In this document: piece by piece, positions 899-26,241 of the stretch
Layout: every line of letters begins with the position of its first letter
Position numbering within the stretch: position 1 is the stretch's first letter
NCBI RefSeq assembly: GCF_008641105.1
Contig: NZ_VTTI01000008.1
Location: forward strand, 62,001 to 126,000
Origin: Halopseudomonas salina
GTDB lineage: Bacteria > Pseudomonadota > Gammaproteobacteria > Pseudomonadales > Pseudomonadaceae
Reading direction: 5' to 3'
Length of the DNA stretch: 64,000 nt
Position numbers and translations under genes: made by a program
Notes under the pieces: model-generated
The model's input: only the letters and a program-made list of their open reading frames with translations
Told to the model about the DNA's origin: nothing
Database searches by the model: none

Positions 899-1951
899 TC
901 ATGGGATAGCTCTTCGCCCCGGATCAGTTGACGTGAAATCCCTTTTCCCTTGCGTCAGATTCCCACGGTATTCACCAGGCGTCATGCCGGTCCAGCTGCG
1001 AAAGGCGCGAATAAACGAACTTTGCTCGGAATAGCCAAGCAACAGGGCGACATCGGTCTGCGCCAACGCGGGGTCTGCCAGGTATTGCCGCGCCAGAGTA
1101 TGGCGGGTGTGCGCCAGCAAGCCTCGGTAGCTGTAGCCCGCACTACTCAGCTGCCGGTAAAAGGTTCGCAGGGAGCAGCCAAGCATCCGGGCGACAGCCT
1201 CAGCGCTGACATCACCGTTTTTCATCGACTCGACTATCTGCTCCTGCACCTGCGTAAAGAACGCCCCTGTTTGCCCGCCCTCGATGAGCGGCTGCTGTTT
1301 GAGTAGGGCCTGTGCCTGCTGCTCAAGCAGGCGCAGCAAATAGGGGTCCTTACTGAAAATCGGCAACGCCAGTAGATGTGCCGGGAGCACCAACTCAATC
1401 GCGTTGCAGTCAAAGTCCACCGGGCAACCAAGGAGCACCGGATAGACAGCAGCATCCTCAGGTCTGGAAAAAGGCAAGCCGGCACGCAACGGGGTAATCG
1501 GCCGGCCAACCAATGCCTGACACAGGCTGACAAATACCGCGAGGCTGAACTCGCTGGCCAGCGGTGTATTTGCCACCGATTGCGTCCAGCGCATGAAAAG
1601 CACCCCGTCCTTGAGCCAGGCGCGGGAGGAGAGCCCGGCCTGCAAAAGTCCTTGATAGCGGTGGTAACGCGCCAGTGCCTGGCCAAGGGTGCCGCAGGAA
1701 GACACCATATAACCCACCACGCCAAACTGACTGGGCCTGACCGCCAGACCCAGGCGCACCCCCAGGGCATTGACCGGATCAAGCTGCCGGACTGACTCCA
1801 GCAGGTCGCAGAATCGCAGCGCCGAAACGCTTGGTGACTCAAGCTCCAGGCTCATCTCATCCAGAAGCACAGGCGCAGGCAACCCACGCTCACGCACATA
1901 GACTTGCAGCGTCTCGATAAAACCTGAGGGGATGTAATCGGTTTTGCTCAT
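899..1951 (-). CDS. AraC-family transcriptional regulator with Arabinose_bd-type sensor domain
   Basis: About 350 residues. The N-terminal ~200 residues resemble the ligand-sensing domain of OruR/ArgR-like AraC regulators (PF12625 type, with GVVGYMVSSCGTLGQAL). The C-terminal ~100 residues carry two helix-turn-helix motifs: SAEAVARMLGCSLRTFYRQL and then DVALLLGYSEQSSFIRAFRSWTGMTPGEYR, the AraC signature. The ATG at 1951 (MSKTDYIPSG) is preferred over an upstream TTG at 1987. The gene is divergent from the ferredoxin/molybdoenzyme fusion with a 115-bp shared upstream region, so that fusion is its most likely target. This is inference from position; the effector is not visible. Confidence 0.88.
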   Translation of the reverse strand: MSKTDYIPSGFIETLQVYVRERGLPAPVLLDEMSLELESPSVSALRFCDLLESVRQLDPVNALGVRLGLAVRPSQFGVVGYMVSSCGTLGQALARYHRYQGLLQAGLSSRAWLKDGVLFMRWTQSVANTPLASEFSLAVFVSLCQALVGRPITPLRAGLPFSRPEDAAVYPVLLGCPVDFDCNAIELVLPAHLLALPIFSKDPYLLRLLEQQAQALLKQQPLIEGGQTGAFFTQVQEQIVESMKNGDVSAEAVARMLGCSLRTFYRQLSSAGYSYRGLLAHTRHTLARQYLADPALAQTDVALLLGYSEQSSFIRAFRSWTGMTPGEYRGNLTQGKRDFTSTDPGRRAIP

Positions 1952-2066
1952 GATTGGCACTATCGGGACGCTGGCACAAAATGTCAATCAGGCACTTGTT
2001 GCCAATACGAATCAGCAAATCCCGACATAACATGCGGGTTTTGTTGTCCCATGCGTGGAGAAGATC

Positions 2067-5000
2067 ATGGCGTACGTAGTCACTCAGAGCTGTATCGGCA
2101 ACAAACACACCAGTTGCGTCGATGTGTGCCCGGTTGAAGCCTTTCGTGAGGCCCCCGAGATGCTGTTTATCGATCCGGATGTTTGCATTGACTGTAACGC
2201 CTGCGTCTCCGCCTGTCCCGAAGGGGCCATCTTCCCGCGGAGTATGGTGCCAGAGGACCAACAATCCTTCATTGCCCTGAACGCCGAAGGGGCCAAGACC
2301 CATCCGGTGATTCGCGAGAGCATCCAGGCTGGTCAACAAGCGGCTAGCCCACTGGCTCGCCTGCCCGGCCGCTTTGCCATTGTCGGTTCCGGCCCAAGCG
2401 GGTTCTATGCCGCTGAGGCACTGATGAAGCAGATGCCTGCCGCGCAGGTAGACATGTTTGAACGCCTGCCCACGCCTTTTGGTCTTGTGCGTTATGGTGT
2501 GGCCCCAGATCACCCACGCATCAAGTCCGTCACGGCCGGGTTTGAACGTATCGCCGAGTCGCCACAGTTTCGTTTTTTCGGCAACGTGCAGATCGGTCGC
2601 GATCTGACCAGCGCCGATCTGCGCCAGTATTATCATGGCGTCATCTACGCTACCGGCGGCTCCCAGAGCCGCCCGTTGACATTGCCGGGGGCCGATAGCG
2701 GCAACATCTTTGGCTCTTCGAATTTTGTCGGCTGGTATAACGGCCATCCAGATGAGGCCGCCCTGGCCCCAGCCCTGACCGGACCCACCGCGGTGATCAT
2801 AGGTATTGGCAACGTGGCGCTGGATATCGCCCGGTTGCTGGTGCTGCCAAATGATCAGCTAGCCAAGACGGACATAGCCGATGATGCCCTTCGGGCACTG
2901 GCAGCCAGCGGCATTGAAGAAGTACAACTGTTAGCTCGCCGAGGACCTGCGCAGGCGGCGTTCACGCCGAAAGAACTGGAACAGCTCATGGCCATAGATG
3001 GGCTGCAGTTGTTAGTCGATCCCGCTGACCTCGAACTGGACGACGCTACCGCGCACCAGCTGGAACAACCTGAGTATGCCGAGGCTCGCCTGAACCTCGG
3101 CCTGCTTCGCGAAATCGCCGGCCGGCCCCGTGGCCCGGGCAAACGCATCCGGTTCATGTTCTACACCAGCCCTACCTCCTTTAGCGCCAGCGACGGGAAG
3201 GTAAGCACCGTGCATGCCCAGCGCACAGAGCTGGTCCGCAACGAAACAGGGCAACTGGTGGCCCAGCCATCGGAACAGACACTGGATATTCCCGCCACAC
3301 TGGTGGTGCATGCCATCGGCTATCAGGGTTCGGCAATCGACGAATTGCCCTTTGATACCGGCCGCGGAGTTATGCAACACGACCAGGGACGTGTCAGCGG
3401 CCATATCGAGAGCCGCGATTACGTCGCGGGCTGGATCAAGCGGGGCGCCAGCGGCGTGATCGGCAGTAACCGTCAGTGCGCAACCGAAAGCGTTCAGCGC
3501 CTGCTGGACGACTTGGGCAACAGCCTGCCCGAGCTGGCTAATGCCGCAATCACTACCCTGCTGCAAGCGCGCGATGTGAATACCGTCAGCATGGCTGACT
3601 GGCGCCTGCTGGATCAGCACGAACAGGCACGGGGCCGAATCGAGGGCAGAACCCGCCGCAAGATAGTCAAGATCGAGGAGATGCTGGGCGTTATTCATGA
3701 GGCACGGGAGCGTGAGGCAGAACAGGCCAGGATGCCGGTCAAAACCCATCACCGTGCATGCACCCTGTGCGAGGCCATGTGTGGCGTCGTCATCGAAACC
3801 CGGGGCGAACAGATTCTATCGATCAATGGCGACCCGGATGACCCTCACAGCGAAGGGCACATCTGTCCGAAAGGCTATGCCTTGCAGGATTTGCATACCG
3901 ACCCGGACCGCCTGCGTACGCCGCTGGAAAAGGTCAATGGCGAGTGGTTGCCCATAGACTGGGACAGCGCTCTGGACAAGGTCGCAGCCAAACTGGTGGA
4001 TATTCAGCAACGCCATGGCGATGACGCCATTTCCGGCTACTGGGGCAACCCCTCTTCGCACAACCTGGGTCTGATGCTGGCATCCGGCTCCTTGCGCAAG
4101 GCAATAGGTACTCGCAATATCTCCTCAGCAGCATCACTGGATCAGATGCCGCACCAGTTGGTGTCCTATCTGATGTTCGGCCACAGCCAGCTATTTACCA
4201 TTCCAGATATTGACCGCACACAATACATGCTGATGCTCGGTGCCAACCCGGCAGCCTCCAACGGCAGCCTGATGACAGCCGGCGATATTCTCAAACGCCT
4301 CGAGCGAATTCGTGAGCGCGGTGGCAAAGTGATCCTCGTCGACCCACGTCGCACAGAGTCCGCGCGCTATGTGGACCAGCACCTGTTTATCCGTCCCGGC
4401 ACTGACGCTTTCTTCCTGCTCGGCCTGATCCGTCACGTGCTCGACAAGGACCTGACCAAGCCTGGCCGATTGCATGAACTGGCTGATAACTGGGATGCCC
4501 TTGCGCCACTGTTTGAGGGTGTAACGCTTGAGCAGGTCAGCACCCGTTGTGGTATTGCTGTCGATGAGATCAAGCGCATAGCTGAAGACTTTGCCGCCGC
4601 CGAATGTGCCGTCTGCTACGGCCGCATGGGTGTTTCCACCCAGAGCTATGGCGCGCTAAACCACTGGCTGATGCTGGTACTGAACATCCTCACCGGCAAT
4701 CTCGACAGCCCCGGCGGCATGATGTTTACCACGCCGGCCTTCAACAAGGCCCAAAGCCGACCCATGGGTAGTTTCAATACTTATCAAAGCCGGGCGCGTG
4801 GCCTGCCGGAATTCGATAGCTACTTTCCCGCAGTTACCCTGGCCGAGGAAATGCTCACCCCCGGCGAAGGCCAGGTACGCGGCTTTGTTTGCGTGGCGGG
4901 TAATCCGGTATTGTCCACGCCCAACGGACGGCAGATGGATGAGGCGCTGGAACAACTCGAATTCATGGTATCGATCGACTTCTATCTGAACGAAACTTCA

Positions 5001-5876
5001 CGGCATGCCGACATCATCCTGCCACCTACCGGACCGCTGGAGCACGAACAGTACGACATCGTGTTCAACATGCTCGCCGTGCGTAACCTGGCACGCTTCA
5101 GCGACCCGGTCTTCGCGCCGGCCGCGGGCGCCCGTTGTGACTGGGATATTGTGCAGGGCCTGGCCGAGCGTATTGCTGCGCTGAAAAACCCCGATGGCGC
5201 ACCAGGACGCAAAATGCCCAGCCCCGAGCAGATTCTCGATCATGGCCTGAAGACCGGCCCCTACGGTCAGGGCTTCAGTGAATACAACAGTGGCCAGCCA
5301 GTAAAGCGTGAAGAGCCCTTGAGCGTCGAGGTACTCAAGCGTTACCCACATGGCCTGGATCTTGGACCCATGCGCGAGTCCTTCCCCGGCTACCTGTTTA
5401 CCCCTGACAAGAAACTGCACCTGACGCCGGCCGAACTGGTCGCGGACCTGGGCCGTGCCATGGCCGAGTTGCGTGGAGCCCAGAACGGCGAGCTGATGCT
5501 TATCGGCCGGCGTGACCTGCGTACCAACAATTCCTGGATGCACAACAGTCAGCGTCTGGTCAAAGGCAACGATCGCTGCGCCCTGCTGATCAACCCCGCT
5601 GACGCTGAACGCCTGGGTCTGGCCAATGGCAAACAGGCACGCATCATGTCGCGCACCGGTGAGCTGCTGGTCAGCGTGCAGGTCAGTGACGACATCATGC
5701 CAGGGGTAGTCTGCCTGCCACATGGCTGGGGTCACGACCGCGAGGGTGTCAGTCTGCGCGTCGCCCAGAGCAACCCGGGCATCAACGTCAACGACATAAC
5801 AGATGATCAGGTGGTTGACGTGTTATCAGGTAACGCGGTGCTCAACGGGATACCTGTGTCGGTTGTGGCGGCCTGA
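2067..5876 (+). CDS. Fused 7Fe ferredoxin / ferredoxin-NADP reductase / molybdopterin oxidoreductase
   Basis: A 1269-residue single chain with three enzymatic parts. Residues ~1-60 form a 7Fe ferredoxin: Cys9, 17, 50 fit a 3Fe-4S cluster and Cys21, 40, 43, 46 a 4Fe-4S cluster. Residues ~100-540 are an FprB/adrenodoxin-reductase-like flavoprotein with an FAD motif (VGSGPSG, ~105-111) and an NADP motif (GIGNVALD, ~245-252). Residues ~560-1269 are a COG0243 molybdopterin enzyme with a further cluster (Cys565, 568, 572, 600) and a C-terminal dinucleotide-binding domain (LMLIGRRDLRTNNSWMHN). There is no Tat signal, so it is cytoplasmic. The first two parts match mycobacterial FprB architecture; the molybdoenzyme fused behind them is unusual. 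ATG 2067 is preceded by GGAGAAG. Electrons could run NADPH-FAD-FeS-Mo or the reverse; the substrate is unknown. Confidence 0.9.
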   Translation: MAYVVTQSCIGNKHTSCVDVCPVEAFREAPEMLFIDPDVCIDCNACVSACPEGAIFPRSMVPEDQQSFIALNAEGAKTHPVIRESIQAGQQAASPLARLPGRFAIVGSGPSGFYAAEALMKQMPAAQVDMFERLPTPFGLVRYGVAPDHPRIKSVTAGFERIAESPQFRFFGNVQIGRDLTSADLRQYYHGVIYATGGSQSRPLTLPGADSGNIFGSSNFVGWYNGHPDEAALAPALTGPTAVIIGIGNVALDIARLLVLPNDQLAKTDIADDALRALAASGIEEVQLLARRGPAQAAFTPKELEQLMAIDGLQLLVDPADLELDDATAHQLEQPEYAEARLNLGLLREIAGRPRGPGKRIRFMFYTSPTSFSASDGKVSTVHAQRTELVRNETGQLVAQPSEQTLDIPATLVVHAIGYQGSAIDELPFDTGRGVMQHDQGRVSGHIESRDYVAGWIKRGASGVIGSNRQCATESVQRLLDDLGNSLPELANAAITTLLQARDVNTVSMADWRLLDQHEQARGRIEGRTRRKIVKIEEMLGVIHEAREREAEQARMPVKTHHRACTLCEAMCGVVIETRGEQILSINGDPDDPHSEGHICPKGYALQDLHTDPDRLRTPLEKVNGEWLPIDWDSALDKVAAKLVDIQQRHGDDAISGYWGNPSSHNLGLMLASGSLRKAIGTRNISSAASLDQMPHQLVSYLMFGHSQLFTIPDIDRTQYMLMLGANPAASNGSLMTAGDILKRLERIRERGGKVILVDPRRTESARYVDQHLFIRPGTDAFFLLGLIRHVLDKDLTKPGRLHELADNWDALAPLFEGVTLEQVSTRCGIAVDEIKRIAEDFAAAECAVCYGRMGVSTQSYGALNHWLMLVLNILTGNLDSPGGMMFTTPAFNKAQSRPMGSFNTYQSRARGLPEFDSYFPAVTLAEEMLTPGEGQVRGFVCVAGNPVLSTPNGRQMDEALEQLEFMVSIDFYLNETSRHADIILPPTGPLEHEQYDIVFNMLAVRNLARFSDPVFAPAAGARCDWDIVQGLAERIAALKNPDGAPGRKMPSPEQILDHGLKTGPYGQGFSEYNSGQPVKREEPLSVEVLKRYPHGLDLGPMRESFPGYLFTPDKKLHLTPAELVADLGRAMAELRGAQNGELMLIGRRDLRTNNSWMHNSQRLVKGNDRCALLINPADAERLGLANGKQARIMSRTGELLVSVQVSDDIMPGVVCLPHGWGHDREGVSLRVAQSNPGINVNDITDDQVVDVLSGNAVLNGIPVSVVAA

Positions 5877-9577: not shown

Positions 9578-10450
9578 ATGCAGAAAGTCGGCACAGTTCA
9601 ATCAATCTGGCGTTACCCGGTCAAAGGCATGGCAGGGGAAAGCATGCAGCAATGCCATCTCTCAGCGAACGGCCTGCTCGGGGACCGTACCTGGGCAGTA
9701 CAGGACCTGGAGCGCCAGGAAATCCAGAGCTGCAAGTTTCGGCCAGACCTGCTGAAATGCCGGGCGAGCCAACGACTGGATAATCATGGCGATCTGAGTG
9801 GGCAGGTAGATGTGAGCTTCCCGGGTGGGATAGTACTGGGCAGTGATGACCCCTCGGTACATAAACAGGTGTCCGACACCATCGGCTACGCTAGTACCTT
9901 GCAGTCGTTGCGGCCCTTCCCTGAAAACGCGGCTTTCTTCAGACGTCACAAGGCCGATGCGACCACCTGGCTCAAGGAATTGAAGGCTACCTTTACACGT
10001 GAACCTGGCGAGCCGCTGCCGGATCTGGATAACCTCCCCCCGGACATGCAGGAATTTGTATCGCTACCCGGTACTTTTTTCCTCGTCTCGCCATTTCACA
10101 TATTGACCAGCGCCAGCCTGCAACACATGCAGCAGATCAACAGTAACGCCGACTGGGACGTGGAGCGGTTCCGGCCCAACCTGGTGATTGAGACCTTGCC
10201 TGGCATGGAGGGACTGATCGAACAGACCTGGTTGGGTAAACAATTGCGCATTGGCGACACGACCATTCAATGCACCGGGACCGCCCCTCGATGTGGCGCC
10301 GTCACCCGCGCCCAGGCCAATCTGCAGACTGACAAAAGTATCCTGCGCAGCATCGTGCAGGCTGCGGAACAGAATCTCGGAATATACGGGGCAATCGACG
10401 GGAACAGTTTGCTGAATGTGGGCGAGGAAGTGTGGCTGGAAACGCTCTGA
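9578..10450 (+). CDS. MOSC-domain protein (YcbX/mARC-like)
   Basis: 290 residues. An N-terminal beta-barrel MOSC_N domain (IWRYPVKGMAGESM...GLLGDRTWAVQD) precedes a MOSC domain. Its conserved Cys239 lies in TAPRCGAVTRAQ, the residue that ligates molybdenum in YcbX/mARC-type enzymes. Such proteins bind the molybdenum cofactor and in studied cases reduce N-hydroxylated compounds using a flavoprotein reductase as partner. A GGAGGG ribosome site lies just before ATG 9578. The gene ends 6 bp from the convergent GGDEF-EAL gene. The nearby molybdoenzyme fused to a reductase hints at a shared cofactor theme, but there is no operon link. Confidence 0.88.
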   Translation: MQKVGTVQSIWRYPVKGMAGESMQQCHLSANGLLGDRTWAVQDLERQEIQSCKFRPDLLKCRASQRLDNHGDLSGQVDVSFPGGIVLGSDDPSVHKQVSDTIGYASTLQSLRPFPENAAFFRRHKADATTWLKELKATFTREPGEPLPDLDNLPPDMQEFVSLPGTFFLVSPFHILTSASLQHMQQINSNADWDVERFRPNLVIETLPGMEGLIEQTWLGKQLRIGDTTIQCTGTAPRCGAVTRAQANLQTDKSILRSIVQAAEQNLGIYGAIDGNSLLNVGEEVWLETL

Positions 10451-12513: not shown

Positions 12514-13212
12514 CTACTTGTTCAACTCTGAAACCATCTCGTCAAAACCGACAAAGGTCGCCACCTCATTGACGTCACGACGCTTGGATACCACAGCGTT
12601 AGCTGGAAATTCTTCATCCGGGTAGCCCATTGCCACGCAGATCAGAATCACCTGGTCCTCGGGAATACCCGCATGCTCGCGAACCACCGGAGAGTGCATG
12701 ATGCCCTGACTGTTAACTACACAGCCCAGCCCGCGAGACCAGGCCGCATTCACCAGGCCATTAACCAGAGCACCACAATCGAACTGGGCGATATCGCCCT
12801 CCTGCAAGACCCGGTCGTAGGTCACCACAATGGAGACAGGTGCATCAAACTGCCGAAAACCTCGGAGGATCCAATCCTGACGCTTTTCCTTGTCGTCACG
12901 GGCGATGCCCATGGCCTTGAACAGCTGCACAGCAATCTCCACCTGCCGGTCACGGTGTTCACCCTCGTAGGCACCCACGCCCCGGCTTTCCTTGGAGGGC
13001 GGCACGCCCTTGAGCATTCGCTCGGTATTCTCCGCCCGGATACGATCCAACGGCTCACCGGTGAGCACATGCAGGTGCCAGGGCTGGGTATTCATCGATG
13101 AAGGCGCGCGGGAGGCAAGCGCAATGACTTCCTCAATCACGTTACGTGGAACGGCTTGCTGCTTGAAAGCGCGAATACTGCGGCGTCCAAAGACGACATC
13201 TTCGTAATTCAA
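12514..13212 (-). CDS. Nitroreductase-family FMN oxidoreductase
   Basis: 232 residues. The flavin-binding start FGRRSIRAFKQQAVP, the SRAPSSMNTQPWHLHVL segment and the C-terminal AMGYPDEEFPANAV loop are typical of NAD(P)H-dependent FMN nitroreductases, which reduce nitroaromatics, quinones or related electrophiles. A TTG start at 13212 is chosen because GAGGAGA lies 7 bp upstream; longer forms up to 13296 lack such a site and would add a non-homologous tail. The gene is divergent from the catalase, and a near-palindrome lies between them. The physiological substrate is unknown. Confidence 0.9.
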   Translation of the reverse strand: MNYEDVVFGRRSIRAFKQQAVPRNVIEEVIALASRAPSSMNTQPWHLHVLTGEPLDRIRAENTERMLKGVPPSKESRGVGAYEGEHRDRQVEIAVQLFKAMGIARDDKEKRQDWILRGFRQFDAPVSIVVTYDRVLQEGDIAQFDCGALVNGLVNAAWSRGLGCVVNSQGIMHSPVVREHAGIPEDQVILICVAMGYPDEEFPANAVVSKRRDVNEVATFVGFDEMVSELNK

Positions 13213-13253
13213 ACCCTGTCTCCTCAGTGAGTTTTTGAGAACCAAATGTATAA

Positions 13254-13265
13254 CCGAACATTCGG
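13254..13265. promoter_or_regulatory. CCGAA-CA-TTCGG inverted repeat upstream of the nitroreductase
   Basis: A 12-bp dyad with 5-bp arms, CCGAA and TTCGG, lies in the nitroreductase/catalase divergent region, 42 bp upstream of the nitroreductase start. Its size and position would suit a dimeric repressor such as a TetR- or MarR-type protein. No regulator gene lies next to it. The assignment is a guess from symmetry. Confidence 0.3.
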
Positions 13266-13454
13266 GTAAATCAATCAAGGTCATGGTTAACCGCAATCAG
13301 CCACAACTGGTTACATATTTATTTTTGATTTATACCCAATCCACGAGTCGAACGGATCAGCCAGAGAAAAGAACTGGTGATCATTTTTAGTCCGGGAGCC
13401 AAGAGACTGACAGGTTTACTGCCCGGCCCGCAACAAATCGAATGGAGAGCTGAT

Positions 13455-25842: not shown

Positions 25843-26241
25843 TTACTCGACCGGAGGTACATCGTCCGTCGCGTCTGCCTGAGGAGTCTGCTCTTCAAGA
25901 ACAGGTACATCTTCCTGCAATACAGGAACATCTTCTTCAATGCTCTGCGGAGCAAAATCCCGCTGCATTGCCGGCGCAGGCAAACCTGCATCACGAATCA
26001 CATCCGCCTTGTTGCTGGCATAAAATGCCAAGCCCAGCGAGGTGATGAAGAATACAGCGGCCAACACAGCTGTCAAGCGGCTAAGGAAAGTTGCCGAACC
26101 CTGACTGCCAAAAACAGTGCCAGATGCGCCGGACCCGAAGGACGCGCCAGTCTCGGCACCCTTACCCTGCTGAATCAGCACGAGGCCGACCAGCGCGAGC
26201 GCTGCCATCAGGTGAATAACCACTACCACGGTCTCAATCAT
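25843..26241 (-). CDS. secG: Preprotein translocase subunit SecG
   Basis: 132 residues. It is an accessory subunit of the SecYEG channel. Two transmembrane helices ([24 protein letters not shown] and [24 protein letters not shown]) flank the conserved [21 protein letters not shown] loop. The tail is acidic and Pro/Gln/Val-rich, with a repeated [14 protein letters not shown] pattern that is longer than in E. coli. Its ATG overlaps the tpiA stop (TAATG), so the two are translationally coupled. Confidence 0.97.

Follow-up and report, generated by a model that had tools for sequence, protein, structure and literature searches.

The locus and its modules

The DNA analysed here, referred to as the window, is a stretch of 64,000 nucleotides of Halopseudomonas salina (contig NZ_VTTI01000008.1, positions 62,001 to 126,000). 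At 2067..5876 on the + strand it carries a gene for a protein of 1,269 residues, in which a ferredoxin, a flavin adenine dinucleotide (FAD)/NADP(H) reductase and a molybdenum (Mo) oxidoreductase follow each other on one chain, as supported by the list of open reading frames (ORFs), Pfam, phmmer against the PDB, the homologues and the pattern of selection. The single frame initiates at ATG 2067, and the GGAG at 2057..2060 (+) is judged from the sequence to be its likely ribosome-binding site; an in-frame GTG at 2055, where the mechanically called ORF starts, lies upstream of this GGAG. The gene of an AraC-family regulator runs divergently at 899..1951 on the - strand, and an operator-like element lies between the two genes (1973..2008, +).

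The N-terminal part is of the FprB type, with a seven-cysteine 7Fe ferredoxin and an adrenodoxin reductase/FprA-type ferredoxin-NADP reductase (FNR) carrying FAD and NADP(H) motifs. The 7Fe ferredoxin module (residues 1-85, 2067..2321, +; C9, C17, C21, C40, C43, C46 and C50) was matched by 7Fe ferredoxins of the PDB over about residues 1-85 and by Pfam Fer4 at 34-55, and the NCBIfam FdxA equivalogs score 98.1 on it, under the cut-off of 135. The FNR module (residues 100-541, 2364..3689, +) is matched over its whole length by FprA (1lqt, E 3e-104) and contains Pyr_redox_2 at 103-258; Foldseek aligned it with FprA at a template modelling score (TMt) of 0.89-0.90 and 42% identity over the alignment. 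A linker (residues 542-558, 3690..3740, +) leads to the Mo half, which consists of a 4Fe-4S domain (Molybdop_Fe4S4, residues 559-607, 3741..3887, +; C565, C568, C572 and C600), the molybdopterin core (Molybdopterin, residues 615-1035, 3909..5171, +) and the molybdopterin dinucleotide-binding domain (Molydop_binding, residues 1143-1257, 5493..5837, +). All three Pfam models of the Mo half score over their cut-offs for the dimethyl sulfoxide (DMSO) reductase, or molybdopterin, superfamily, and the fold agrees: the structure model of this half (predicted local distance difference test score 85.1, predicted template modelling score (pTM) 0.89) found formate dehydrogenases and NapA as its best Foldseek matches. 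No signal peptide was recognised by eye on the fusion protein, no predictor being used. The original prediction had described one frame made of an FprB-like module and a complete molybdopterin oxidoreductase with its own 4Fe-4S site, and Pfam and the PDB searches agree with each part of it.

The fused frame is conserved

It had been conceded that the frame might be two separate proteins joined by an error near residue 545, and this was checked with homologues and genomes. Among the best 120 of 7,999 scored matches, 103 align over 97% or more of the query. In 78 genome loci examined, the full-length fusion is present in 19, and in four further loci (L006, L009, L017 and L018) the contig stops within it. 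A single open frame of 1,268-1,328 residues exists in 18 of the 19 full-length loci; the exception (L021, 8001-11869, Alkalilimnicola ehrlichii AK92) stops after 922 residues, at about query residue 890 and not at 545. Mo-only relatives of high identity do occur, for example P0093 (92%, 731 residues), which would suit two genes fused by a sequencing or assembly error; however, the frame and the linker region are kept in 18 of 19 independent loci. Because of these loci and the 103 full-length homologues, a sequencing join is excluded, and the artefact is given practically no weight.

In an alignment of 50 fusions (the window protein and 49 others at 51-94% identity to it), the seven ferredoxin cysteines, the four Mo-side cluster cysteines, K602, D692, Q693 and R291 of the FNR are invariant. 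In five pairs with close relatives, the nonsynonymous to synonymous ratio (dN/dS) was 0.01-0.05 in the ferredoxin, 0.06-0.13 in the FNR and 0.04-0.07 in the Mo half. In every one of these pairs dN was higher in the linker than in any of the three modules, and the dS of the linker was computable in two of the pairs. Judged from these codon comparisons, all three modules are under purifying selection. The enzyme had not been recognised as a characterised one, and the profile libraries and the open-licence literature searched gave no characterised orthologue. As far as the searches reach, the fusion is a genuine, conserved and uncharacterised enzyme architecture.

The predicted molybdenum site and the Asp clade

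Asp692 (codon 4140..4142, +) is the predicted Mo ligand. HMMER aligned it on the selenocysteine (Sec, printed X) of an F420-linked formate dehydrogenase, and in the MAFFT alignment it shares its column with the Sec/Cys of E. coli FdhF and NapA as well as the Asp of NarG. The position was followed through 369 rows, which comprise 131 tree rows (three outgroups left aside) and 238 further database proteins; many of the 369 are near copies, or one gene entered two times. It is Asp in all 369 rows and is followed by Gln in 364, and the cluster cysteines and K602 are kept wherever letters exist. Some Nocardia matches were flagged with one TGA, and selenocysteine was considered for them; in all 30 Nocardia loci examined the residue is Asp and the aligned stretches contain no stop, and natural ends probably account for the flags. 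The Asp-type molybdoenzyme is present in genomes of several phyla, and its database names (molybdopterin or molybdopterin-dependent oxidoreductase, dehydrogenase or the like) give no substrate. To our knowledge, and within the searches made, no donor, substrate or function is known for this clade.

Formate dehydrogenases provide the nearest profile, the nearest sequences and the nearest folds, so that a formate dehydrogenase had to be considered. Its Sec or Cys followed by His, as in FdhF, is however replaced by Asp-Gln, with the Gln shared by nearly all of the rows above, and the profile score of 234.6 bits is below the NCBIfam cut-off of 666.25; this identity is therefore highly improbable. 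The second-best profile is NCBIfam NasC (209.1 bits), which raises an assimilatory nitrate reductase running from NADPH through FNR and ferredoxin to a NarB-like part on one chain. This score is far below the equivalog cut-off of 1100, and NasA-type enzymes use a Cys ligand. The fusion has Asp where NapA has Cys, the regulator beside it belongs to the AraC family, and reading the sequence starts of the window ORFs by eye revealed no nitrite-reductase gene nearby. A monomeric NADPH nitrate reductase does exist, namely NasN of M. smegmatis, as described in an excerpt of PMC7816997. A nitrate reductase is thus possible but unsupported, and we think it quite improbable.

In an IQ-TREE phylogeny of 33 rows the Asp clade forms one unit (100/100). 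A branch with 98/92 support groups it with FdhF, NapA and Cys-type rhizobial proteins, opposite to NarG, DmsA and BisC, in a tree whose branches are long and which holds only one type II row. According to a review, Cys or Sec, Asp and Ser ligands go with types I, II and III, respectively (a passage of PMC7759655), and Asp and Ser enzymes group together in a family phylogeny (a passage of PMC7331816). The alignment gives the fusion the Asp of type II, but in this limited test it is not placed with NarG and its kin. The position of the Asp clade on the type I side, as judged from this tree, departs from the published picture of ligand and type.

Origin of the fusion and repeated pairing of its halves

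In a FastTree phylogeny of 134 Mo-domain rows, the fusions fall together, and their neighbours are standalone enzymes from Emcibacter, Kordiimonadaceae and further Proteobacteria. On this tree the label 'fusion' has to change three times, at least two of the changes being required by well-supported branches, because the Mo-only rows L018/P0118 and P0120 (Marinobacter lacisalsi, 735 residues) fall inside the fusion clade. L018/P0118, one sequence from Halomonadaceae (72%), has its start at the edge of its contig, and in the same genome an FprB half stops where a different contig ends; this is probably a fusion split by assembly. Of 293 sampled genomes from the order to which Halopseudomonas pelagia belongs, 121 carry a relative at E <=1e-100 and eight the full-length fusion, at least five of these eight additionally holding a standalone relative. 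A second sample gave a relative at E <=1e-180 in 37 of 121 genomes, and among these fusion parts were found in the genome of L018 (G383) only. On these grounds, the fusion is read as the derived form of a common enzyme.

The two halves are also paired as separate genes. In Nocardia, a relative at E <=1e-150 is present in 65 of 78 genomes, and an FprB gene (ferredoxin plus FNR) lies directly 3' of the Mo gene in all three genomes with the type of L054 (>=73%); none was found within flanks of about 1.5 kb in the other 27 Nocardia loci examined. This adjacent pairing seems, from the tree, to have arisen separately from the fusion, because the L054 type occupies another branch. Five homologues of FprB length, together with one shorter FNR, were found in the genome of L054 (G304, Nocardia rhizosphaerihabitans).

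A further pairing was found on alphaproteobacterial plasmids. Four loci of Agrobacterium, Allorhizobium and Thioclava (L079, L081, L082 and L086) have genes for a Mo oxidoreductase, a ferredoxin and an FAD reductase in one row with moaA or glp, and an AraC gene that diverges from it; the Rhizobium CB3090 plasmid (L083) combines the genes for a ferredoxin, an FAD reductase and a Mo oxidoreductase with moaA, an aldehyde dehydrogenase gene and, instead of AraC, a LysR gene. All five rows contain the same three electron-chain parts as the fusion. They differ from it in their identity of about 32%, in their separate genes, in a regulator that is related by its HTH (helix-turn-helix) only, and in the ligand column, which is Cys in the three proteins tested (L079, L081 and L083); the first alignment had a gap in the Agrobacterium and Thioclava rows and Cys in CB3090, and Cys for all three appeared in a later alignment. 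These rows constitute a second uncharacterised NADPH-Mo system. The recurring pairing gives good evidence for an FprB-type module that either feeds or drains Mo enzymes of this kind.

The moaA or glp genes beside these paired relatives also speak against the idea that the Mo half no longer binds metal and that the chain is a transhydrogenase-like scaffold as in StnC/NfnC. Those proteins follow a like design, with an NAD(P)H flavin domain and a formate dehydrogenase-like domain on one chain, and 9bov and 8oh5 align along the chain of the fusion. However, the whole-chain Foldseek match is weak (TM about 0.33), and the Mo half of the fusion keeps the Pfam core and dinucleotide domains and the invariant cluster Cys, Lys and Asp, whereas the formate dehydrogenase-like domain of StnC is catalytically inactive according to an excerpt of PMC10482914. 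We regard such a scaffold as very improbable.

The AraC regulator and a conserved operator-like element

The divergent regulator with a ligand-sensing domain that had been noticed from the ORFs is present as described, with Arabinose_bd and AraC HTH domains in Pfam. Its likely start is ATG 1951, and the ORF can be extended to the first listed start, TTG 1987. An AraC orthologue is divergent and adjacent in 17 of the 18 fusion loci with enough flank (that of L002 is too short). Scored against curated NCBIfam profiles, the regulator stays under the cut-off of its nearest ones (QhpR, 180.7 against 250; GliR, 147.7 against 570; CypR, 105.3 against 500), which name no inducer. In the standalone Mo loci L126 and L135, a gene of the same AraC cluster lies three or four ORFs off.

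The operator-like element has the pattern GGCACAAAATGTCAAY-N11-TGYCRATAC. It was found by a scan of the window, as a footprint in the relatives and by its core in their genomes. The pattern has one match in the window and none in 100 shuffles, and 17 of the 19 fusion genes have an exact copy of its 15-base core upstream. When 13 whole genomes were searched with a 16-base core (<=1 mismatch), it was found in 11, with exactly one site in ten of them and one exact and one 1-mismatch site in the other (G006); by coordinates, all 11 exact sites sit just upstream of the fusion gene of their own genome. The AraC protein would bind this element, and the regulator is apparently devoted to one enzyme. 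The earlier suggestion that the enzyme is induced by a specific compound is strengthened by an element that is conserved and, in most of the relatives' genomes, confined to this locus. A 2-mismatch half-site of the element is present at window position 26017.

Gene neighbourhood

Neighbouring genes were clustered over the 78 genome loci and then over 106, with plasmid loci and further loci of the Pseudomonadales order added. The AraC gene is the only widely conserved partner of the fusion; short-chain dehydrogenase/reductase (SDR), acyl-CoA, DUF1330-like (three loci) and housekeeping neighbours are scattered. The mechanical ORF calling sometimes took antisense frames (L005 and L007), so a missing neighbour there is weak evidence. 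On a Deinococcus plasmid (L080, 5953-8091), a standalone Asp-type Mo gene lies directly behind genes for an SDR, MaoC, a thioesterase, an acyl-CoA dehydrogenase, a phosphotransferase and a histidine phosphatase; a second Deinococcus plasmid (L085) has no acyl-CoA cluster. Three standalone relatives near the fusion clade (L023, L047 and L069) have a small DUF1330-like gene directly 3' of the Mo gene, and the Pfam match is at threshold in L023, the one searched (23.1 against 23.0). In the window, a MOSC/MOSC_N protein of 290 residues is encoded at 9578-10450 (+), 3.7 kb downstream of the fusion, with no sign of membership in its unit; MOSC proteins, YcbX and mARC among them, bind the Mo cofactor. 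A nitroreductase-family protein is encoded at 12514-13296 (-), a few genes from the fusion.

A proposed electron chain and its direction

A self-contained chain from NADP(H) to Mo, as the original prediction had it, is the natural reading of this protein, because the eleven cluster cysteines, R291 and the Mo-ligand Asp are invariant in the 50 fusions. We lean towards a cytosolic, single-chain, inducible NADPH-dependent Mo reductase that forms its own one-gene regulon. In such an enzyme, NADPH would reduce the FAD of the FprA-type module, the fused 7Fe ferredoxin would relay the electrons to the [4Fe-4S] cluster of the Mo half and from there to a Mo-bis-pterin centre held by Asp692, and this centre would reduce a small oxidised compound such as an N-oxide, an S-oxide or an oxyanion. 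The AraC protein would sense that compound or a derivative, bind the intergenic element and switch on the fusion enzyme alone. The sequence NADPH, FAD, ferredoxin, [4Fe-4S] and Mo with Asp692 is the most economical chain. The repeated pairing of the two halves, in Nocardia and, with Cys-type Mo proteins, in the alphaproteobacterial rows next to moaA or glp, supports this reductase, as do the domains, the purifying selection on the modules, and the AraC gene and element conserved along with the fusion. We infer its Mo content, the order of electron flow, the reductive direction and the nature of the inducer. Enzymes of the FprA/adrenodoxin-reductase type usually oxidise NADPH and pass the electrons to ferredoxin, and the reductive direction is proposed for this reason and because the gene is alone and apparently inducible, which suits a one-step conversion or detoxification.

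The flow could also be reversed, with a Mo dehydrogenase or a hydroxylase that takes its oxygen from water, as ethylbenzene dehydrogenase does, passing electrons from an organic donor through ferredoxin and FAD to NADP+. Lipid or acyl-CoA genes near some relatives (Deinococcus L080 and Nocardia L054) are consistent with this direction, and ethylbenzene dehydrogenase has an Asp ligand according to a passage of PMC7759655. Such neighbourhoods are however not conserved, the cluster being missing from L085; the clusterings gave no common substrate genes; and the usual direction of FprA-type reductases is the opposite one. We judge the reversed flow unlikely, while giving it real weight.

Several observations weigh against the NADPH-dependent reductase. 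Its direction rests on analogy. No conserved neighbour names a substrate in the clustering of either 78 or 106 loci, and the model of residues 1-1140 has a pTM of 0.58 with a ferredoxin part of low confidence, so that the electron path is uncheckable by distance. On the side of regulation, a Rhodanobacter locus (L011) has the fusion with neither the AraC gene nor the element and must for this reason be controlled differently, and L019 has a core variant only. The full 36-bp pattern (<=3 mismatches) has a single match in each of 7 of the 12 relatives' genomes searched and none in the rest, where its spacing or its second half deviates; among distant loci, the second half is displaced or altered.

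A broader proposal can be put forward tentatively, since we find it slightly easier to doubt than to accept. A large clade of DMSO-reductase-family enzymes may be a distinct Asp-ligated class on a scaffold like that of formate dehydrogenase and NapA, cytosolic and fed by NADPH through an FprB-type ferredoxin-FNR that is fused, adjacent (Nocardia) or provided in trans, and placed here under a single-target AraC sensor. If this is true, the rule that assigns Cys/Sec, Asp and Ser ligands to types I, II and III needs a further class with its own chemistry, and the fusion reveals the electron donor that has been missing for a very large orphan clade. The natural fusion places the entire chain in one expressible polypeptide, so substrates could be screened directly by NADPH oxidation, and the AraC sensor and the element together offer a reporter for finding the inducer. 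Either could settle the role of an orphan enzyme class and test whether the Mo ligand tracks phylogeny. The wider interest is that the fusion makes the orphan Asp clade testable.

Comparison with known systems

Residues 1-541 of the fusion resemble M. tuberculosis FprA (1lqt) and adrenodoxin reductase (1cjc), with a 7Fe ferredoxin and an FAD/NADP(H) module. The FprA/FprB-type reductases end at a separate acceptor, whereas the module of the fusion is joined to a molybdoenzyme.

Among working enzymes, the closest analogue is NasN of M. smegmatis (MSMEG_4206). Its reductase part is of the diflavin kind and not FprB, and it is regulated by GlnR, whereas the fusion has an AraC regulator. As described in an excerpt of PMC7816997, NasN resembles the fusion in being a single, Mo-dependent chain with NADPH as donor, and differs from it in its 1,351 residues, its 'distinct domain architecture' and its annotation as nitrate reductase/sulfite reductase; the same excerpt gives no nitrate role to MSMEG_2237 and MSMEG_6816. 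StnC of Sporomusa ovata and NfnC of Caldicellulosiruptor (8oh5 and 9bov) likewise combine an NADPH flavin domain with a formate dehydrogenase-like domain in one chain. They differ in their GltD/NfnB-type flavin domain, their NuoG parts, the inactive formate dehydrogenase-like domain and their place within a bifurcating complex (a passage of PMC10482914), whereas the fusion has an FprA-type FNR and a complete Mo half.

Type II enzymes of the DMSO-reductase family, NarG and others, have Asp at the Mo-ligand position as the fusion does; unlike them, the fusion is not grouped with NarG, and no gene for a four-cluster or membrane subunit is in view. By fold and sequence, its Mo half is nearest to the type I formate dehydrogenase and NapA, from which it differs in having Asp-Gln instead of Sec/Cys-His or Cys-Met.

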